A stretch of 36,639 bases of DNA, taken from assembly GCF_000188195.1 (NCBI RefSeq), contig NZ_GL830968.1, forward strand, positions 1 through 36,639, read 5' to 3'. Of this stretch, positions 5,631-22,703 are shown in pieces; the stretch's first letter is position 1; each line of letters opens with the position of its first letter. Source of the stretch: Succinatimonas hippei YIT 12066. Lineage in GTDB: Bacteria > Pseudomonadota > Gammaproteobacteria > Enterobacterales > Succinivibrionaceae. The notes beneath the pieces are model-generated. The model saw nothing but the letters and a program-made list of their open reading frames with translations. It was not told the origin of the DNA and ran no database searches. The translations under genes were made by a program, and so were the position numbers.

Positions 5631-7289
5631 ATGAAAAAAACTAAGCTAAATTTGTTGCAGCATTTAAGCAGGGTTGCAGACGGTGCGGAAAAGTCCAAAT
5701 TGGAAAATGATTATTTTGCTGAATATGCAGATGATTTTTCTTTTTTAACCAAACATCTTGAACTTACTAAAGAACAGATAGCTCTTTTTTCAATAATTTT
5801 AGGTTTGAGTTTAACCAGACGCGCCGATATTTCTGAGATTATTGATTATCTTGGTTGTAAGTCATTGCAGTTTTTGATGTTTTCGAAAGATATTGAAGCT
5901 CTGGTTGATAAGGAATTTATTTTAAAATTAAATAATGATGAAAGGGTGTATTCTCCTTACTATATTGTTCCGGCAAAAGTGGTAAAAAACTTAGAGACTG
6001 ATTTTTTGCCTGTTGTCGTAGAAAAGAAAATATCATCTGATGAAGATCTGATTGAAGAGCTTAATGACTTGTTTTCTTTATGTGATGATATTGCTCCTGA
6101 GGAGCTTCAACATAAAATATCATTTCTTTTAAAGCAAAACGATCAGATTGTATTGTCTCAGACGGTAGTCAGTTTTGAGCTTGGTTTTGAGATATACATA
6201 TTGTTGTATATGTGTGTAAATTATGTAATAAATGACAACAATTGTTTTGCGTTGAGTGAGTTCAGGGACTTTTATGACAGAAGTGATTTTTTTAAGTTAA
6301 AAAAGCTGTTTAATAAAAAACAAAGCGCCTTGCAAAAATTGAATTTGATTGAGAAAACCGATGACGGTCCCATGTTTAGAAGAAACGATGAAACTTATTA
6401 TGCATTAACTGATACCGCATTCATTAAGCTTTTATCAGATTTTAATTTTAGGGAAAGGCGATCTTTTGAACACGACAGAAGATTTATCTCGTATGAAAAA
6501 ACCTCTGTAAAGCAACTTATTTATGATGCAGATCTAAAACAGCAATTAAACGGTTTTGTCTCTCTTTTGGAGGAGAAAAAATTTAATGAAGTAGTTGAAA
6601 AACTTAAAGATAGAGGTATGCGCTCCGGTTTTACCTGTATTTTTTACGGCTATCCCGGAACCGGTAAAACGGAAAGCGTATTGCAGATTGCCAAGCTGAC
6701 AAAACGTAATATTTGGAAAGTTGATATTGCAAATATTTTTGATAAATACGTTGGTGAAAGTGAGAAAAATATAAGAAAGATTTTTGATGATTATAGGGAA
6801 TTGTTAAAAAAATCTAAAACAGCTCCGATTTTGCTGTTTAATGAAGCAGACGCTGTCATCGGCAAACGTATTGAGAATGTGTCTCAATCGGTTGATCAAA
6901 TGCAAAATACGGTTCAAAACATTATTTTGGAAGAGCTTGAAAACTTTGAAGGCATATTAATTGCCACCACCAATTTAACCGTAAATTTGGATAAAGCATT
7001 TGAGCGGCGTTTTTTGTATAAGGTAAAATTTGAAAAACCTTCAAATGAGATTTCAGAACAAATTTGGAAGGGGTTTATTGATAATCTTTCTGACAAAGAT
7101 GCTAAGACTTTGGCAAAAGAGTATTCATTAAGTCCAGGACAAATTGAGAATGTTTCGCGTAAATATACTATTGATAATATTTTGTTTGACAGTAAAGAAG
7201 ATCTTTTTACGCAATTAACTCGCTATTGCAAAGAAGAATTTTTTAATGACGCATATAATCAAAAATCAAGCAGAAGGATAGGTTTCTAA
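5631..7289 (+). CDS. AAA+ ATPase with a large unassigned N-terminal region
   Basis: 552 residues. The C-terminal part is a classical AAA module: Walker A GYPGTGKT at 340-347, GESEKNIRKIF near 375-385, Walker B ILLFNEADA at 400-408, sensor-1 ATTN at 445-448 and an FERR arginine-finger position near 458-460. The first Walker B acid (normally D) is Asn while the catalytic Glu is kept, so Mg handling may differ but hydrolysis is still plausible. Residues 1-300 show no domain I can name; they are helical and charged, with stretches that could form winged-helix repeats (residues 45-110 and 185-270). The next genes encode a 74-residue and a 27-residue membrane protein. This suggests an ATPase acting at or signalling to the membrane. 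A defence role is inferred from the island only. Confidence 0.85.
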   Translation: MKKTKLNLLQHLSRVADGAEKSKLENDYFAEYADDFSFLTKHLELTKEQIALFSIILGLSLTRRADISEIIDYLGCKSLQFLMFSKDIEALVDKEFILKLNNDERVYSPYYIVPAKVVKNLETDFLPVVVEKKISSDEDLIEELNDLFSLCDDIAPEELQHKISFLLKQNDQIVLSQTVVSFELGFEIYILLYMCVNYVINDNNCFALSEFRDFYDRSDFFKLKKLFNKKQSALQKLNLIEKTDDGPMFRRNDETYYALTDTAFIKLLSDFNFRERRSFEHDRRFISYEKTSVKQLIYDADLKQQLNGFVSLLEEKKFNEVVEKLKDRGMRSGFTCIFYGYPGTGKTESVLQIAKLTKRNIWKVDIANIFDKYVGESEKNIRKIFDDYRELLKKSKTAPILLFNEADAVIGKRIENVSQSVDQMQNTVQNIILEELENFEGILIATTNLTVNLDKAFERRFLYKVKFEKPSNEISEQIWKGFIDNLSDKDAKTLAKEYSLSPGQIENVSRKYTIDNILFDSKEDLFTQLTRYCKEEFFNDAYNQKSSRRIGF

Positions 7290-8591: not shown

Positions 8592-8624
8592 TTGCACATT
8601 AATTGTAAATATAAGGAGATTCCC

Positions 8625-9602
8625 ATGAAAATAAAAGGACTGATTGCCGGACTTGCTTTAGCCACTATGAGTGTCATGAGTGTCGGAGCTGCTCAGGCAG
8701 ATGAATATCCTTCACGCTCAATCACTATGATTTGCGCATGGGGTGCAGGCGGCGGTTCTGACGCTGTTGCCAGAATGATCGCAGGCATTATGGAAAAAGA
8801 TTTAGGTCAGCCGATTAAGGTCGTAAACCAAACCGGTGGCGGCGGTACCATTGCATTCTCCAGCCTTTCAAGAGCAAAACCCGACGGCTATACGATTGGC
8901 CAGGTCACCGCAGAGCTTGCCATGAACCATTGGCAGAATCCCGCTGTTCAGATCACTTATAAAGATTTTGAGCCTCTTGCATTGGTTAATGTCGATCCTG
9001 CCAGCGTTACATTAAGCGCAACCGCTCCTTATAAGACTTATGATGAGTTTGTTGAATACGTTAAGGCAAACCCGGGTAAAGTCAGAGCCTCTGCTACTGC
9101 CGTAGGCGGTATTTGGCACATCGCAATGGGACAGTGGTTGACTGCTTTAGGTCTTCCGGTTAATGCCATTAAGTGGATTCCGACATCAGGTGCCGGCGAG
9201 ACTTATAAGGAAATGGCCGCTGGCGGTATCGATGCAGGCTTTAACCAGCTTTCCGAAGGCTCAACCATGTATCAGGCCGGAAAAGCAATTCCTGTTGCCG
9301 TAATGGCTGATGAACGCGATCCTAAATACCCTGACGTTCCTACTTTAAAAGAAAAGGGAATTGATGTTTCAATCGGTACTTGGCGCGGATTCTGTGTTCC
9401 TAAGGGCACTCCTCAGGACATTAAAGACAGACTTAATGCCGCTATCAAGAAAGCCGTTAATGACCCTCAGTTCGTTCAGTTCATGAATGATCGCGGCTTT
9501 GGTATTCAGTATCTGGAAGGAGAAGACTTCTATAAGTTTATGGAAAAATCAGATGCTGATTTAGGCGCTTCCATTGAAGCTTTAGGCCTTGCCCGTAAAT
9601 AA
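8625..9602 (+). CDS. tctC: TTT transporter periplasmic binding protein (TctC/Bug family)
   Basis: 325 residues from ATG 8625, chosen because AAGGAG lies six bases upstream and a clean signal peptide follows (basic KIK, hydrophobic core, cleavage after AQA before DEYP). The mature N-terminus YPSRSITMICAWGAGGGSD and the VNQTGGGGTIAFSSLSRAKPDGYT segment are hallmarks of the Bug family, which binds a carboxylate between two lobes. It presents the substrate to TctA/TctB encoded immediately downstream. The specific ligand (citrate, tartrate, aromatic acid or other) cannot be read from sequence. A stem-loop just after its stop probably raises its level over the membrane subunits. Confidence 0.93.
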   Translation: MKIKGLIAGLALATMSVMSVGAAQADEYPSRSITMICAWGAGGGSDAVARMIAGIMEKDLGQPIKVVNQTGGGGTIAFSSLSRAKPDGYTIGQVTAELAMNHWQNPAVQITYKDFEPLALVNVDPASVTLSATAPYKTYDEFVEYVKANPGKVRASATAVGGIWHIAMGQWLTALGLPVNAIKWIPTSGAGETYKEMAAGGIDAGFNQLSEGSTMYQAGKAIPVAVMADERDPKYPDVPTLKEKGIDVSIGTWRGFCVPKGTPQDIKDRLNAAIKKAVNDPQFVQFMNDRGFGIQYLEGEDFYKFMEKSDADLGASIEALGLARK

Positions 9603-9646: not shown

Positions 9647-10102
9647 ATGCGTGTCCATGACAGTCTTATAGGACTAATTATTTTTATTGGCGGTATTTGC
9701 ATCTGCATTACCGCTTCCTCATTTCCTTCGCAGATGGACGGCAGCCCGGGACCTGCGTTGTTCCCGATGGTTTTATCCGGTTTATTTTCTATTTGCGGAG
9801 CCGTGTTATTTATTAAAAACTTTAAAACCATCAGTGCCTCGAATTTATTTGTAAGAAATCTCTCTTTGGGCGGTTTGATTAATATCCTTATCGTAATCGC
9901 TTTAATTATTTTTTATGGTTTGGCCGTTGAAACTTTGGGCTTTTTACTGTGTATGGAAGTAGTTTTGCTGGCTTTAATGCTGATGTTAAAGACTACCTTC
10001 GTAAAAGCTCTTATTGTTTCAATCTGCGCTACGATAGTTATTTATTTGATTTTTGCCAAAGGTTTGCTGGTTCCGTTGCCGGTAGGACTGTTTGCCTTCT
10101 AA
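9647..10102 (+). CDS. tctB: TTT transporter small membrane subunit TctB
   Basis: 151 residues with about four membrane helices. The start LIGLIIFIGGICICITASSFP and the following PGPALFPMVLSG match the TctB family: a helix, then the conserved proline-rich turn. TctB works with TctA as the inner-membrane permease of a three-part, ion-gradient-driven carboxylate uptake system. AAGGAT ends six bases before ATG 9647. It sits between tctC and tctA, and its stop overlaps the tctA ribosome site, so expression is coupled. Confidence 0.9.
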   Translation: MRVHDSLIGLIIFIGGICICITASSFPSQMDGSPGPALFPMVLSGLFSICGAVLFIKNFKTISASNLFVRNLSLGGLINILIVIALIIFYGLAVETLGFLLCMEVVLLALMLMLKTTFVKALIVSICATIVIYLIFAKGLLVPLPVGLFAF

Positions 10103-10112
10103 GGAGATAAAT

Positions 10113-11618
10113 ATGTTTGATTCTTCCGTAGTATCGGCAGGTCTTGATCTACTGCTTGATTGGCAAGTCTTAATAGTGATGATTTGCTCAAGCTTATACG
10201 GTTTGTTTATCGGTGCCATGCCGGGACTTACCGCAACTATGGCAGTAGCTTTGCTGATCCCCATTACTTTTTATATGCCGCCGATTCCGGCTATTGCCTC
10301 CATCATCACTATGTCGGCAATGGCAATTTTCGCAGGTGATATTCCCGGTACTTTAGTGCATATTCCGGGCACTCCGTCATCAGCTGCTTATTGTGATGAT
10401 TCATATTCATTAGCCAAAAAAGGTAAAGCTGCCGTTGTTTTAGGCACCAACGTCACTTTGTCAGTATTAGGCGGTTTATGCGGATCTTTAATTCTTACCT
10501 CTATGGCTCCGATACTTGCCGAAGTGGCGATGCAGTTCTCGTCATTTGAGTTTTTCTGGCTGGTGTGCATCGGTCTGTCTTGTGCGGTATTGATTTCGGC
10601 TGCATCTCCGCTTAAGGGATTTATTTCATTACTGGTAGGCCTGCTGATTACTTGTATCGGACTTGATATCACTTTAGGCTTCCCGCGGTTTACTTTCGAT
10701 CGCCCTGAGCTTTTTGAAGGCTTCTCGTTTATTCCTGCCATGATCGGTATGTTCGGTATGGCCGAGATCTTCAAAAATGTATCGGAAAAGCAATCGGCGC
10801 TTGAAAAAGTAACGATTCAGAGCATGAATATTTTCTCCGGAATGCTCGGTAGAATTCGCGGTTGGTGGAAGCAAATTTTCCGTTCCGGAATTTTAGGCAC
10901 TTTGGTCGGTGTATTGCCGGGAGCCGGTGCCGATATCGCCGCCTGGATTTGTTATGGCGTAGCCAAAAAATTCTCAAAGCATCCTGAAGAATACGGCAAA
11001 GGATCTCTTGAGGGTATCGCAAACTCTGCTGCAGCAAATAATGCGGCACTAAGCGGTGCGTTTATTCCGGCATTGGTATTCGGTATTCCCGGAGACTCCA
11101 TTACAGCTATCGTAATCGGAGTGCTCTTTATGAAAGGCTTGGAGCCGGGACCTAATTTGTTCCAGAATTCACCGGAATTCTTATTTGCCATTTACATGGT
11201 ATTCATTTTGGCAAACTTGCTGATGTTGCCTTTAGGCTATCTGGCTATTCGCTTGGCAACTAAAGTCATGTATGTTCCTACCAATCTCCTGCATCCTATC
11301 ATTGTAGGTTTCTGTGTAGTCGGTGCTTTTGCCATCAACAATACCAACTTTGACGTTATGGCAATGTTAGGCTTCGGTGTTCTTGCTTACTTTATGATTG
11401 CAAACGGCTTCCCGGTAGCGCCTGCGATATTAGGCTTGGTTTTGGGCAAAATGCTTGAAAATACTTTCATGCAGTCAATGCTTAAATCCGAATGGGATTT
11501 AACTGCATTCTTTGATCGCCCGATTTCCGCAACTTTAGGCGTTATTACCTTTGCCTTATGGTTGTCGCCGTTCTTTATGAAGATGATTAAAAAAGCAATT
11601 GCTAAGAGAATTGCTTAA
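10113..11618 (+). CDS. tctA: TTT transporter large permease subunit TctA
   Basis: 501 residues from ATG 10113, which has AAGGAG at 10101-10106; the longer in-frame start at 10092 overlaps tctB. Family signatures include GAMPGLTATMAVALLIPITF near the start, GDIPGTLVHIPGTPSSAAYCDD around residues 78-99 and GVLPGAGADIAAWICYG in the middle, which are the two duplicated PG-rich repeats of TctA. There are about ten to twelve membrane helices. It is the transport channel for the TctC ligand. The operon ends at a stem-loop terminator about 25 bases downstream. Confidence 0.94.
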   Translation: MFDSSVVSAGLDLLLDWQVLIVMICSSLYGLFIGAMPGLTATMAVALLIPITFYMPPIPAIASIITMSAMAIFAGDIPGTLVHIPGTPSSAAYCDDSYSLAKKGKAAVVLGTNVTLSVLGGLCGSLILTSMAPILAEVAMQFSSFEFFWLVCIGLSCAVLISAASPLKGFISLLVGLLITCIGLDITLGFPRFTFDRPELFEGFSFIPAMIGMFGMAEIFKNVSEKQSALEKVTIQSMNIFSGMLGRIRGWWKQIFRSGILGTLVGVLPGAGADIAAWICYGVAKKFSKHPEEYGKGSLEGIANSAAANNAALSGAFIPALVFGIPGDSITAIVIGVLFMKGLEPGPNLFQNSPEFLFAIYMVFILANLLMLPLGYLAIRLATKVMYVPTNLLHPIIVGFCVVGAFAINNTNFDVMAMLGFGVLAYFMIANGFPVAPAILGLVLGKMLENTFMQSMLKSEWDLTAFFDRPISATLGVITFALWLSPFFMKMIKKAIAKRIA

Positions 11619-15440: not shown

Positions 15441-15485
15441 TGTTTGTGATTCTTTTTGTGATTTCTTTAGTAAGAGGATAATGCT

Positions 15486-16028
15486 ATAAACAACATCAAG
15501 AAGACCGGTAAGCCTCAGCTTAAGAACCGGGTTAACGGTGACATCAGATGCCGTGAAGTGCGTCTTTTGAACCAGGAGAATGAAGTGATCGGGGTTATGC
15601 CCACGGTTGAAGCTCTGCGTATGGCTGAAGATGCCGGCGTAGATCTGGTTGAAATCAGCCCTAATGCTGATCCTCCTGTATGCCGCTTGATCGAGTACGG
15701 TAAGTACCTCTACGAAAAGAGCAAAGATCAGAAAAAGAAGAAGCAAAAGGTTGTCCAGGTCAAGGAAATTAAATTCCGTCCTGGCACCGATGAAGGCGAT
15801 TATCAGGTTAAACTACGCAACCTGATTCGCTTCCTTGAGGACGGCAATAAGGCTAAAGTAACATTGCGTTTTCGCGGACGTGAATTGGCGCATCAGCACT
15901 TAGGCCTTGATGTTCTCAAGCGTGTAGAGAATGATCTCTGCACTGAACGCGGTCTGGCTACCGTAGAGTCGGCTTCTCGAGTAGAAGGCCGTCAGGCTAC
16001 GATGGTTCTGGCCCCTAAAAAGAAATAG
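15486..16028 (+). CDS. infC: Translation initiation factor IF-3 with an AUA start
   Basis: 180 residues if started at ATA 15486. IF-3 binds the 30S subunit and rejects non-canonical start codons and wrong initiator pairing. Conserved features: [35 protein letters not shown], linker [37 protein letters not shown] and C-terminal [14 protein letters not shown]. The conserved N-terminus lies upstream of the first in-frame GTG (15558). Between the in-frame stop TAA at 15471 and that GTG there is no ATG, GTG or TTG. AAGAGGA (15472-15478) sits seven bases before ATA. IF-3 genes are known to use AUU-type starts for self-repression, so AUA is the best reading; ATC at 15495 is a weaker alternative. Confidence 0.93.
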
Positions 16029-16745: not shown

Positions 16746-16784
16746 TTTAATAATTATGCCGCTTTGTGCGGCATAATTATTAAA
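16746..16784. terminator. Perfect 17-bp hairpin at the end of glgA
   Basis: TTTAATAATTATGCCGC (16746-16762), loop TTTGT, then the exact reverse complement up to 16784, one base before the glgA stop. There is no clear U-run on the glgA strand beyond the AT-rich arm, so it may terminate weakly or protect the mRNA 3' end. Confidence 0.6.
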
Positions 16785-18239
16785 TTACCACCATTTTGGC
16801 TTTTGAGCCGCGTCGGCGTAGAGGGCTTCGTATTTCTTACAAGAATCCTCCCAACTAAAACGCATATTCATTGCATTACGTTTAATACGCTGCATTTCAT
16901 TTTGATCTTCGTAGTAGAAAATCAAAGTACGTCTTAAGCAGGACAAAAGCTCTTCAGGACTCGGCTCTTCGAAAATAAATCCGGTGCCGTTTTTATTGTC
17001 GGAATCGTAATCTATAACTGTGTCTTTAAGACCGCCTACACCGCGTACGATAGGTAGAGTACCGTAAGCTAAAGAGTAGATCTGATTTAAGCCGCAGGGC
17101 TCGAAGATTGACGGCATTAAGAAGAAGTCAGCACCGGCCTCGATTTGGTGCGCAAGTTCATTGTCGTAAACTCCTTTAAACACCATTTTACCGGGGTGTC
17201 TCTTGGCGATTTCTGTCATTTGACGTTCAAAGTTAGGATCACCGGTTCCTTCAATGATTAATTGGACGTTATGACACAGGAATTTATCCAAAATCGGAAT
17301 TAGGATGCCGACTCCTTTTTGATCGGTAAGGCGAGCGACCATACCGTACAAAGGAATATCTCCCATTTGCAGACCGATTTTACGCTGTAGCAGATACTTA
17401 CCGAGGATTTTTTCTTCCATGGTATTAACGTCATAACGCACGGTAATGTGAGGATCAACTTTAGGATCCCAATCTCCGTAGTCACAACCGTTTACAATGC
17501 CGCAAAGATCAGCAGCTCTGGCCTGATAGTTTTGCGCCATGCCGTGACCGCCTAAGTAAGTGGTAAGCTCTGAAGCGTAGCCCGGACTTACGGTATTGAT
17601 TTTGTCAGCGTAGAAAACACCGCATTTTAAAAAGTTTATATAAGAGCCGTTGACAATCATGTCGTTGTAGACATGAAATATTTCCGGAACATATCTTATC
17701 TGATTGCGATCAAAAGCGCCTTGGAATGCACCGTTGTGAATAGTCAGGACGGAACGGGTCTTGTCAAAGAATTTATCTCCGCCGTATTTTATTCTTAAAA
17801 TCATCGGAGCAATGGCAGTGTGCCAGTCATTACAGTGAACGATGTCCGGTGAGAAATTCAGAACTTTGGCTGCATCCAATGCGGCAGATGCCAGGAAAGC
17901 AAAGCGTTCTCCGTTATCCCAATACGCCTGATTGTTATCTCCGTAGATGCTCGTGCGCTCGTAGTAACGGCGGTAATCAAGCATCCAAACTTCAACACCG
18001 TCAGAGGTGAAGGTTTGGCGGATTGCGTAATCCATTTGCAAGGATGAGCCGGGATTCAATGTTCCTGTGCCGATGATTTTATTGTCAAAAGATCCTTTGA
18101 TTACGCTGTAGCACGGCATCACAATACGGACATCATGCCCATTGGCCTTAAGCTGTGCCGGCAGGGATTTTGCCACGTCGGCCAGACCTCCGGTTTTGAT
18201 TAAACCGGCAACTTCGGAAGCTAAGAATAGTACTTTCAA
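16785..18239 (-). CDS. glgA: Glycogen synthase (ADP-glucose type), TTG start
   Basis: 484 residues from TTG 18239. The encoded N-terminus is then MKVLFLASEVAGLIKTGGLA, exactly the family start, with AGAGGAAA six to seven bases upstream; an in-frame ATG at 18260 gives a seven-residue extension without support. GlgA is a GT5-family, GT-B-fold enzyme that adds glucose from ADP-glucose to glycogen. KTGGL at 15-19 is the ADP-glucose-binding motif. The later region EPCGLNQIYSLAYGTLPIVR, with the catalytic acid and phosphate contacts, is intact. It lies 71 bases after glgC, which makes its substrate. Confidence 0.95.
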   Translation of the reverse strand: MKVLFLASEVAGLIKTGGLADVAKSLPAQLKANGHDVRIVMPCYSVIKGSFDNKIIGTGTLNPGSSLQMDYAIRQTFTSDGVEVWMLDYRRYYERTSIYGDNNQAYWDNGERFAFLASAALDAAKVLNFSPDIVHCNDWHTAIAPMILRIKYGGDKFFDKTRSVLTIHNGAFQGAFDRNQIRYVPEIFHVYNDMIVNGSYINFLKCGVFYADKINTVSPGYASELTTYLGGHGMAQNYQARAADLCGIVNGCDYGDWDPKVDPHITVRYDVNTMEEKILGKYLLQRKIGLQMGDIPLYGMVARLTDQKGVGILIPILDKFLCHNVQLIIEGTGDPNFERQMTEIAKRHPGKMVFKGVYDNELAHQIEAGADFFLMPSIFEPCGLNQIYSLAYGTLPIVRGVGGLKDTVIDYDSDNKNGTGFIFEEPSPEELLSCLRRTLIFYYEDQNEMQRIKRNAMNMRFSWEDSCKKYEALYADAAQKPKWW

Positions 18240-19775: not shown

Positions 19776-19806
19776 TGTCCCATCTTAAATTATGGAGGCT
19801 TTATTT

Positions 19807-20649
19807 ATGAAAAAATTTGGTGTATTGGCAGCTACTGCCGTTGCAACCGCTGCTTTGTTTGCAACTGCACCTGCATCAGCTGATGTTATGAATCTTGCAT
19901 TCAACCAGCCTGAAGATCACCCGGAGTATCGTTCTATCGCTCAGTTCTCCGATAAGCTCAAGGAAGCTACCGGCGGCGAGTGGTCAATCGAGATTTTCCC
20001 TAACGAGTTGTTAGGCTCTCAGAAAGAAACTATCGAAATGGTTCAGAACGGCGCTCTTCCTTTCTCCCTCGTAGCAGGCTCTCTGCTTGAGAACTGGAAC
20101 CCTGATTTTGCCGTGTTTAACCTTCCGTACGTTTTCAAAGATTACAAGCATTTACAGCGCGTAGTTAAAGATAAGACTGTTGTCGGCGATCTCTTTAAGT
20201 CTCTGGAAAACCAGGGCATCACCGTTTTGTGCGCAATGTACTCCGGAACCCGTAACGTTTACACCAAGAACAAAGAAGTCAGAACCCCTGCTGATTTGTC
20301 CGGCCTTAAGATCCGCGTAATGCAGTCCGACACCATGGTTAAGATGTTGAACTACATGGGCGGTACCGGTACCCCTATGGGACAGGGCGAAGTTTACACC
20401 GCTATTCAGACCGGCGTTTTGGACGGTGCTGAGAACAACGAAGTTACTTACTATGCATTAAAGCAGCATGAAGTCGGCCCGATCTACAACTTGACCGGCC
20501 ATTTGATGATGCCTGATTACATTGTTACCAACACCGCTTACTTCAACAGTCTGCCTGACAATGTCAAGCAGTTCTTTGCTGACAACATCGATGCTTTGGT
20601 TGATACCGAGTTTGAAATGTTCCAGCAGGAAGTTTCCAAGTCTTTATAG
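19807..20649 (+). CDS. dctP: TRAP transporter binding protein DctP, cut short by an in-frame TAG
   Basis: 280 residues from ATG 19807 to TAG 20647. The in-frame ATG at 19792 is rejected because it overlaps the GGAGG ribosome site and the signal peptide starts at MKKFGVLAAT with cleavage after ASA. DctP captures a carboxylate in the periplasm. Features: SIAQFSDKLKEATGGEWSIEIFPN, LLGSQKETIEMVQNG, and PADLSGLKIRVMQSD with the substrate-salt-bridge Arg. The family is usually about 320-340 residues. Translation past the TAG continues in the same frame for 47 codons of typical DctP C-terminus, giving 328 in total. The stop therefore removes the terminal helices. A single C-to-T change of CAG would explain it. 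Confidence 0.9.
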   Translation: MKKFGVLAATAVATAALFATAPASADVMNLAFNQPEDHPEYRSIAQFSDKLKEATGGEWSIEIFPNELLGSQKETIEMVQNGALPFSLVAGSLLENWNPDFAVFNLPYVFKDYKHLQRVVKDKTVVGDLFKSLENQGITVLCAMYSGTRNVYTKNKEVRTPADLSGLKIRVMQSDTMVKMLNYMGGTGTPMGQGEVYTAIQTGVLDGAENNEVTYYALKQHEVGPIYNLTGHLMMPDYIVTNTAYFNSLPDNVKQFFADNIDALVDTEFEMFQQEVSKSL

Positions 20650-20793
20650 AAAGCCAAGAAAGAGGGCACCAAGGTTATCGAAGCTGATAAGGATGCCTTC
20701 AAGAAAGCCGTACAGCCTCTTATCGATGAGAAGGTTTCAACCGACTCTGCTAAGAAACTCTATGAGGCAGTTCAGAAATCCCGCGACCTCTAA
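20650..20793 (+). pseudogene. dctP: In-frame remainder of dctP after the amber codon
   Basis: 47 sense codons directly after TAG 20647-20649, ending at TAA 20791: KAKKEGTKVIEADKDAFKKA, then an AVQPLIDEK-type helix and KSRDL. This is the normal DctP C-terminal helical region in the same frame as the upstream part. No other stop or frameshift is present, so the interruption is recent, an assembly error, or read through. Confidence 0.8.
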
Positions 20794-20813
20794 TTTTGAA
20801 CTGTAAATGACTT

Positions 20814-20842
20814 AAAAAAGGGGGTCAAAAGCCCCCTTTTTG
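20814..20842 (+). terminator. Strong stem-loop between dctP and dctQ
   Basis: AAAAAGGGGG-TCAAAAG-CCCCCTTTTT has a G5/C5 stem flanked by A/T runs and a U-tract, an intrinsic terminator in all respects. Since dctQ and dctM follow immediately, it probably acts as a partial terminator that keeps the binding protein in excess. Confidence 0.8.
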
Positions 20843-20867
20843 TTGAATAACGTCAAGGATAAAAATT

Positions 20868-21377
20868 ATGGAATTTTTAACCAAGATAAAGCGCTTTTTG
20901 GACAATATATTAAAAGTCCTCTGCATCTTTTTGTGCGGCGCTATGGTAGTTTTGGTTTCATGGCAGGTTTTTTCCCGCTTTGTTTTGCAGGATCCGAGCG
21001 CAATTTCTGAAGAGTTGGCTAATATTTGTTTCGTGTGGACGGCAATGCTCGGCTCCGCTTTGCTTTATGGCGAAAAGGGCCACATGAATATTAATTTTAT
21101 TCCTGAAAAGTTAGGCCCTTACTGGTCAAATATTCTTGTCATTATCAGTGAGCTTTTTACTTTAGGAATGGCTTTGCTGGTTTTGACCTACGGCGGTTAT
21201 CACATCGCTCAGAACGCTATGTCCCAGACCAATGCCGCAATGCTGTGGCTTAAGATCGGTCAGATTTATTCAGTAGTTCCTATTGCCGGTGCTTTCATTG
21301 TTTTTTATGCAATATATAACGTATTGTCTTCAATAAAAGTGTTGCTTGCCGGTAAAGATGCTTTGAAGGCTCAATAG
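20868..21377 (+). CDS. dctQ: TRAP transporter small membrane subunit DctQ
   Basis: 169 residues with four hydrophobic helices. SWQVFSRFVL, SEELANICFVWTAMLGSALL and YGEKGHMNINFIPEKL match the DctQ family. It pairs with DctM as the membrane part of a Na+-driven TRAP uptake system for dicarboxylates, sialic acid or related acids. AAGGAT stands eight bases before ATG 20868. The stop TAG is 12 bases ahead of dctM. Confidence 0.92.
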   Translation: MEFLTKIKRFLDNILKVLCIFLCGAMVVLVSWQVFSRFVLQDPSAISEELANICFVWTAMLGSALLYGEKGHMNINFIPEKLGPYWSNILVIISELFTLGMALLVLTYGGYHIAQNAMSQTNAAMLWLKIGQIYSVVPIAGAFIVFYAIYNVLSSIKVLLAGKDALKAQ

Positions 21378-21389
21378 GGAGTAAGAGAT

Positions 21390-22703
21390 ATGTCCGCAAC
21401 TGCAGATATTTTTATTTATCTTTTGGTACTTACTCCGATCTTGTTGATTATCGGATGCCCTATCGGTACCAGTATTTGTGTAGGTTCCGTTTTGTCGATG
21501 GGTGCCATTTTAGGCATGAATGCGACTTTGGTTTCTGCAACACGTATTTACTCAGGTATGAATAGCTTTGCGCTTATTGCCATTCCGTTCTTCGTCTTAG
21601 CAGGCGTTATTATGAACACCGGTGGTATCGCGCAAAAGCTGATTAATTTGGCTAAAGTATTCATCGGCTTTATTCCGGGCGCTTTAGCTCATACCAACAC
21701 CGTAGCTAATATGATGTTCGGCGCTATTTCCGGATCCGGTGTAGCCGCAGCAGCTGCTATCGGATCTGTCATGCTCCCGATTGAGAAGAAGGAAGGTTAC
21801 GAGCCGCGTTTGTCCGCAGCCGTTAACATCGCTTCCGCTCCGTCAGGCATGATTATTCCTCCGTCCAACATCTTCATTATTTATTCCTTGGCATCTGGCG
21901 GTGTTTCCGTTGCCGCATTGTTCGTTGCAGGCTATTTGCCGGGAATTTTGTGGGGCCTTGCAGTTATTATCGTAACTGCCTACTATGCTTGGAAATTGAA
22001 GTATAAGGCACAACCGATTAGCGGCTGGGGAACCCGTTTGCAGATATTGATTGAAGCTATTCCTGCAATATTGCTTATTATCATCATTATCGGCGGTATT
22101 ATTTCAGGTTGGTTTACTCCGACGGAAGCATCGTGCGTCGCGGTGGTGTACTCGGCTATTTTGTCAGGCTTCTATCGTTCATTCCACTGGAAGGATGTTC
22201 CGGCAATGCTGCTCAGCACCGCTAAGACCACTGCTCTTATTGTGTTCCTTATCGGTGTTTCCGCAATTTTAGGCTGGGTTTTGGCTTATGCCAAGATCCC
22301 GAACATGATTGCAACGGCTCTTATTAATTTTGCCGATACTCCGTCAGTAATTCTGCTCGGTATGATGGTTATCATGCTGCTTGTAGGATGCGTCATGGAT
22401 CCGGCTCCTGCCGTACTCATTTTTACTCCGATCTTCTTGCCGGTTGCCATGCAGCTTGGTGTACATCCGGTTCATTTCGGTGTAATGATGGTATTTAACT
22501 TGTCATTAGGTGCTATTACTCCTCCGGTAGGACCGATTCTGTTTACCGGATGTCGAGTGGCAGGTGAGACTATTGAATCCGTATTTACCAGATTGTTGCC
22601 GTTCTTCTTTGCTCTTATCGTGGCTTTGGTTCTCGTAACTTTGGTTCCGTGGTTCTCCTTGTATCTGCCGGAATCCGCAGGCCTTATCAGTCCGGTAAAT
22701 TAA
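21390..22703 (+). CDS. dctM: TRAP transporter large permease subunit DctM
   Basis: 437 residues with about twelve membrane helices. Family motifs include IPFFVLAGVIMNTGGIAQKL, FGAISGSGVAAAAAIGSVM, APSGMIIPPSNIFIIYS and, in the second half, LGAITPPVGPILF, which mark the two inverted repeats with hairpins carrying Na+ sites. It is the transport channel fed by DctP. GGAG lies ahead of ATG 21390. Two hairpins follow the stop, the second a clear terminator. Because dctP carries an amber codon, the whole transporter may be impaired although DctQ and DctM are intact. Confidence 0.94.
   Translation: MSATADIFIYLLVLTPILLIIGCPIGTSICVGSVLSMGAILGMNATLVSATRIYSGMNSFALIAIPFFVLAGVIMNTGGIAQKLINLAKVFIGFIPGALAHTNTVANMMFGAISGSGVAAAAAIGSVMLPIEKKEGYEPRLSAAVNIASAPSGMIIPPSNIFIIYSLASGGVSVAALFVAGYLPGILWGLAVIIVTAYYAWKLKYKAQPISGWGTRLQILIEAIPAILLIIIIIGGIISGWFTPTEASCVAVVYSAILSGFYRSFHWKDVPAMLLSTAKTTALIVFLIGVSAILGWVLAYAKIPNMIATALINFADTPSVILLGMMVIMLLVGCVMDPAPAVLIFTPIFLPVAMQLGVHPVHFGVMMVFNLSLGAITPPVGPILFTGCRVAGETIESVFTRLLPFFFALIVALVLVTLVPWFSLYLPESAGLISPVN

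Follow-up and report, generated by a model that had tools for sequence, protein, structure and literature searches.

Does an amber codon inside a TRAP transporter gene mark a broken gene, a codon read as sense, a leaky stop or a flaw in the assembly? The question is raised by dctP of Succinatimonas hippei YIT 12066 (19807-20793, forward strand), which lies in the window, the whole 36,639-nucleotide stretch that we analysed; the window is one contig (C30) of a draft assembly of 2.31 Mb in 141 contigs, 98.06% complete. Translation agrees with the initial annotation, which had placed an in-frame TAG 47 codons ahead of the natural end of the gene. The TAG is codon 281 (20647-20649), and the remainder of dctP (20650-20793) consists of 47 more sense codons in the same frame and the original TAA at 20791-20793. 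As encoded, the open frame (19807-20649) holds 280 residues upstream of the TAG, so that about the final seventh of DctP is lost. The start is most likely at 19807 on the sequence, because the alternative ATG at 19792 overlaps a GGAGG site suited to 19807.

The sequence around the stop had also been described as DctP coding sequence, and family scores and orthologue identity bear this out. The read-through frame scored 215 bits against the dctP model TIGR00787 and 203.7 bits against NF037995, while the part before the stop alone scored 212.2 and 190.2 bits, respectively, such that both versions exceed the curated TIGR00787 cut-off of 175.05 bits. In the 47 post-stop codons, 32-39 of 46-47 residues were identical to each of eight close orthologues, compared to 30-36 of 47 in the 47 codons immediately upstream of the TAG. 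The identity past the stop indicates that these codons are real, or formerly real, DctP coding sequence for a normal C-terminus, rather than an open frame arisen by chance.

The gene belongs to a TRAP operon in the order dctP-dctQ-dctM (19807-22703, forward strand), in which dctQ and dctM are open and adjacent. The large permease gene dctM (21390-22703) matched TIGR00786 with 401.1 bits (cut-off 268.45), and dctQ, the small permease gene (20868-21377), was assigned from its position between dctP and dctM and a weak YiaM match of 34.4 bits, below the cut-off of 260. The stretch separating dctP from dctQ holds a G+C-rich hairpin with a T run behind it (20815-20841, forward strand), which, read by eye, resembles an intercistronic terminator. 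A hairpin 3' of dctP was likewise read by eye in all eight close orthologues, those of L019 and L022 running beyond the 75 bases folded and the T run being short or broken in L017, L019 and L023; the stretch from the distant relative L024 ended ahead of its stop codon in this comparison. The hairpin probably keeps dctP expressed above dctQM, and thereby determines how much binding protein is made per permease, and the 144 bases newly left untranslated ahead of it could exert polarity on dctQM.

Elsewhere in the window, no stop interrupts the infC frame just ahead of its first listed ATG, GTG or TTG (~15480-15560; GTG at 15558), and the IF3_N match begins at the second residue of the listed infC, at profile position 11. 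Because the match begins that far into the profile and the frame is open upstream, the sequence places the true infC start upstream of 15558, perhaps at an unusual start codon, for which infC is known. An AAA-type ATPase is encoded at 5631-7289, with the anti-phage ATPase IteA as its best NCBIfam match (96.8 bits, far under the cut-off of 510), and the larger ORFs at 8592-9602 and 10092-11618 had no NCBIfam match at E ≤ 0.001.

We assessed whether UAG could be sense in this genome from its release factor and from stops inside other genes. The gene for release factor 1, prfA, is present (531.7 bits, cut-off 423.25). Genome-wide, dctP had 20 matches, 18 of them above the cut-off, and the window dctP was the only one of these 18 with an internal stop; the other 17 had none within their matched stretches. 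Internal stops were also absent from the matches to DctM (0 of 18), ABC_tran, the ABC-ATPase model (0 of 48, 42 of them above the cut-off), AMP-binding (0 of 2) and the prfA model (0 of 2, one above the cut-off). Together with the 17 dctP matches these make 87 stop-free stretches, a count of matches to which some genes contribute two and which excludes the pieces of a decayed dctP copy on contig C19. That copy (L090, ~16773-17179, minus strand, near the contig end) is matched in two pieces, one of which holds two TGA and one TAA, and it is an older dctP pseudogene within this genome. The 18 dctP matches, the window gene included, and 18 dctM matches above family cut-offs amount to many TRAP systems for a 2.3-Mb genome.

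Stop codon usage was further examined in a sample of the window plus 20 stretches (386,425 bases), a non-random choice made mostly for tRNA genes, dctP copies or prfA. Of the 309 sampled ORFs with 120 codons or more, 53 ended in TAG, the window dctP included. A coding-like stretch beyond the stop was found for 1 of 55 TAG-ended ORFs, namely the window dctP, and for 0 of 219 TAA-ended and 0 of 47 TGA-ended ORFs (321 ORFs of at least 100 codons), under a rule devised after seeing the case (at least 25 codons before the first ATG, a score above 5 and little overlap with another ORF). A looser test (any positively scoring extension of 30 or more codons, on the 309 ORFs) returned 7 of 53 for TAG, 24 of 211 for TAA and 2 of 45 for TGA; at least one of these extensions, that of dctQ in the window, simply reads on into the neighbouring in-frame gene dctM. 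UAG within many genes and a lost RF1, the marks of a reassigned UAG code, were thus not what we found. A code change or general amber tolerance was rejected given prfA, the absence of internal stops from the other matches and the single TAG-ended ORF with a tail. The initial annotation had taken UAG for a normal stop here and argued against a code change, and both points hold.

The origin of the stop was traced in relatives from a search of 56 Succinivibrionaceae genomes, our own included, at a match threshold of E ≤ 1e-60. The window dctP had a match in 10 of the 55 other genomes (7 of 41 when the less complete ones are set aside and our own is counted), with identities of 77-85% in eight relatives and 53% and 39% in the remaining two. 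Relatives found by protein came from metagenome assemblies named Succinivibrio, Succinatimonas, Succinivibrionaceae or Aeromonadales; seven loci from that search coincide with seven of the ten relatives and are not additional. The codon equivalent to the TAG encodes Glu in 9 of 10 relatives, as GAG in five (L018, L019, L021, L022 and L023) and GAA in four (L016, L020, L024 and L025), and Asp (GAT) in L017. None of the ten, all of which belong to genera other than that of our genome, has a stop at the site, and a scan of viral contigs for sister strains with this dctP returned nothing. The stop had first been ascribed to a change from CAG, a codon found in none of the ten relatives, and that route was rejected as a candidate for the simplest one. 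The underlying idea that a single-base change can account for the stop stands, since with Glu at the site in nine of ten relatives one substitution is enough, and a G-to-T transversion from GAG (Glu) to TAG is the simplest origin.

We modelled the read-through DctP from an alignment of 11 sequences (mean pLDDT 83.9, pTM 0.82) and located what the truncation removes. The model comprises a long helix at residues 251-285, a strand at 289-292 and helices at 295-309 and 313-324; the stop takes away the final turn of the long helix and everything beyond it, and the lost strand and helices were modelled at high confidence (block means ~89-95). The product as encoded therefore lacks the complete C-terminal elements of DctP. 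Across residues 25-328 the model matched TRAP binding proteins, with 4n91 as its best solved relative (Z 35.9, rmsd 2.2, 296 residues aligned, 31% identity). The available part of a review, PMC5812351, describes a long helix that spans both domains of TRAP binding proteins and kinks upon ligand binding, and helix 251-285 of DctP would correspond to it.

No DctP ending near the position of the TAG was seen among 8 close orthologues, 17 paralogues from the same genome and 60 solved chains. All eight close orthologues have the full C-terminal tail, and the 17 paralogues all extend 42-60 residues beyond the equivalent point, as extrapolated from local alignments. At least 44 residues lie beyond that point in 60 distinct solved sequences, the best 60 of 94 matched, for which tail lengths were extrapolated from the ends of local alignments, tags may be included and several chains are variants of one protein. 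Because all examined relatives extend 42 or more residues further, the 280-residue product is probably defective, being either unstable or inactive.

We next considered the age of the stop and selection on the tail. At positions invariant in eight relatives (a count made without L024 and L025), the window was changed at 0 of 19 after the stop and at 2 of 165 before it. Leave-one-out tests on the intact relatives gave 0-4 changes among 19-23 invariant positions, and because intact relatives themselves vary to this degree, 0 of 19 has little power and suggests only that no decay can be seen. Against L017, the ratio of codon differences that alter the amino acid to silent ones (compared without L025) was 13:19 after the stop and 26:115 before it, a tilt towards relaxed selection in either sequence over a stretch too short to be decisive. 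The ratio was similar or slightly higher after the stop against L016 (7:16 versus 38:91) and L018 (8:17 versus 36:107). An undecayed tail is predicted alike by a recent mutation, by read-through and by an assembly error.

A recent nonsense mutation, either fixed or at strain level, that inactivates one of about 18 TRAP systems is probably the correct explanation. dctP would have gained a single nonsense substitution at codon 281, most simply GAG to TAG, recently enough to leave the rest of the gene, dctQ, dctM and the operon layout intact. RF1 is expected to terminate translation at UAG, and the 280-residue precursor so released, whose long helix is one turn short and which has neither the strand nor the two C-terminal helices that follow, should fail to fold properly in the periplasm or be broken down there. 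TRAP systems with DctQM in place but without a binding protein should not transport, and DctQM left alone in this way would make one of the ~18 systems inactive. The data show the stop itself, the residue that relatives carry there, its isolation within the sample, the prfA gene and the open neighbouring genes; we infer the instability of the product and the loss of transport, and likewise whether the stop is fixed, strain-level or a matter of the assembly consensus.

The stop is single, isolated in the sample and shared with no relative, the gene is patchy, 17 other dctP genes exist and RF1 is present, which together point to a recent mutation or a consensus error. dctP also looks dispensable within the family, judging from sequence matches, because 10 of 55 other genomes have one. 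Set against a recent mutation are the lack of decay past the stop, which read-through or assembly error would also explain, and the absence of a close paralogue that might cover the loss, the nearest by sequence being 32% identical. The options offered in the initial annotation were fair ones, of which loss of function and strain variation are favoured by the evidence and read-through is unsupported.

An assembly error ranks as the next likely explanation, albeit an unlikely one: dctP would be intact in the population, and the T at 20647 would be an artefact of sequencing, library damage or strain mixture that entered the consensus as an error or minority allele. The draft state of the assembly, with its 141 contigs, is compatible with this, as are the otherwise intact operon and post-stop codons. 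G to T is a change typical of oxidised guanine, and the substitution proposed here is of that type, although such changes arise in cells as well as in libraries. Visible errors of this sort nevertheless seem to be rare in the assembly, because no comparable case occurred elsewhere in the 321 sampled ORFs (under the post hoc rule) or in the 87 other matched stretches.

Functional read-through or suppression is improbable. UAG 281 would then be read by a suppressor or near-cognate tRNA, either giving short and long forms of DctP or rescuing the gene. The undecayed tail (0 of 19 invariant positions changed) fits this reading, yet carries little weight when intact relatives show 0-4 changes themselves. 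A candidate suppressor was sought among 42 tRNA genes above the Rfam cut-off, with anticodons assigned by ARAGORN (30 plus another 12); none had a CTA anticodon, in a list that is incomplete and holds no Gln, Glu, Asp or Ile gene, a gap that leaves some room for read-through. A loose pattern for a CTA anticodon loop matched five places, none of them a tRNA by ARAGORN, compared to 24 matches of a reversed control pattern. Separately, a weak tRNA-like match of 46 bases was seen on contig C71 (23.6 bits). The presence of prfA, the lack of TAG inside any other gene checked and the absence of this TAG from all ten relatives, each of another genus, further oppose read-through.

The argument in print is a general one: the available part of Belinky et al. 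2021 (PMC7918605) reports in-frame stops to be widespread in bacterial genes, many with dN/dS < 1, but also finds many detected events short-lived and likely deleterious in the long term, and it offers nothing specific to the dctP locus, for which read-through is possible but unsupported. It is a long shot that the cell retains UAG 281 and decodes it in part with a natural suppressor or near-cognate tRNA absent from the draft, so that full-length DctP is made in small, adjustable quantity and the stop serves as a dial on one transporter; if true, the gene would illustrate how a leaky stop codon can tune nutrient uptake. That the 280-residue DctP works as a naturally shortened binding protein is barely credible, since, for all that the truncated part scores above the TIGR00787 cut-off and most of DctP, presumably with the ligand-binding cleft, lies upstream of the stop, the lost elements are confidently modelled and the solved chains, paralogues and close orthologues all continue past this point.

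A recent nonsense mutation, as it stands, means little: yet another transporter gene seems to have been broken recently, in a genome rich in similar transporters, an ordinary event that calls for caution when transport abilities are inferred from an assembled genome. The open-access library that we searched yielded no report of a premature stop in DctP of TRAP transporters and none on TRAP transporters in Succinivibrionaceae. Compared with suspected read-through stops in the available part of PMC7918605, such as TAG/CAG in a Paenibacillus sulfotransferase family, the window dctP is alike in its in-frame TAG with a conserved downstream frame and unlike in that those stops are shared by several species. 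The gene resembles DctP/SiaP-type substrate-binding proteins of TRAP systems (TIGR00787) in fold, family score and dctP-dctQ-dctM order; it differs from every relative examined in that its product ends 47 residues early, or 48 with the position of the stop codon. It resembles recent nonsense, or incipient, pseudogenes of bacteria in having a single premature stop, absent from its orthologues (0 of 10), no visible decay elsewhere in gene or operon, a patchy distribution across its family and many paralogues.
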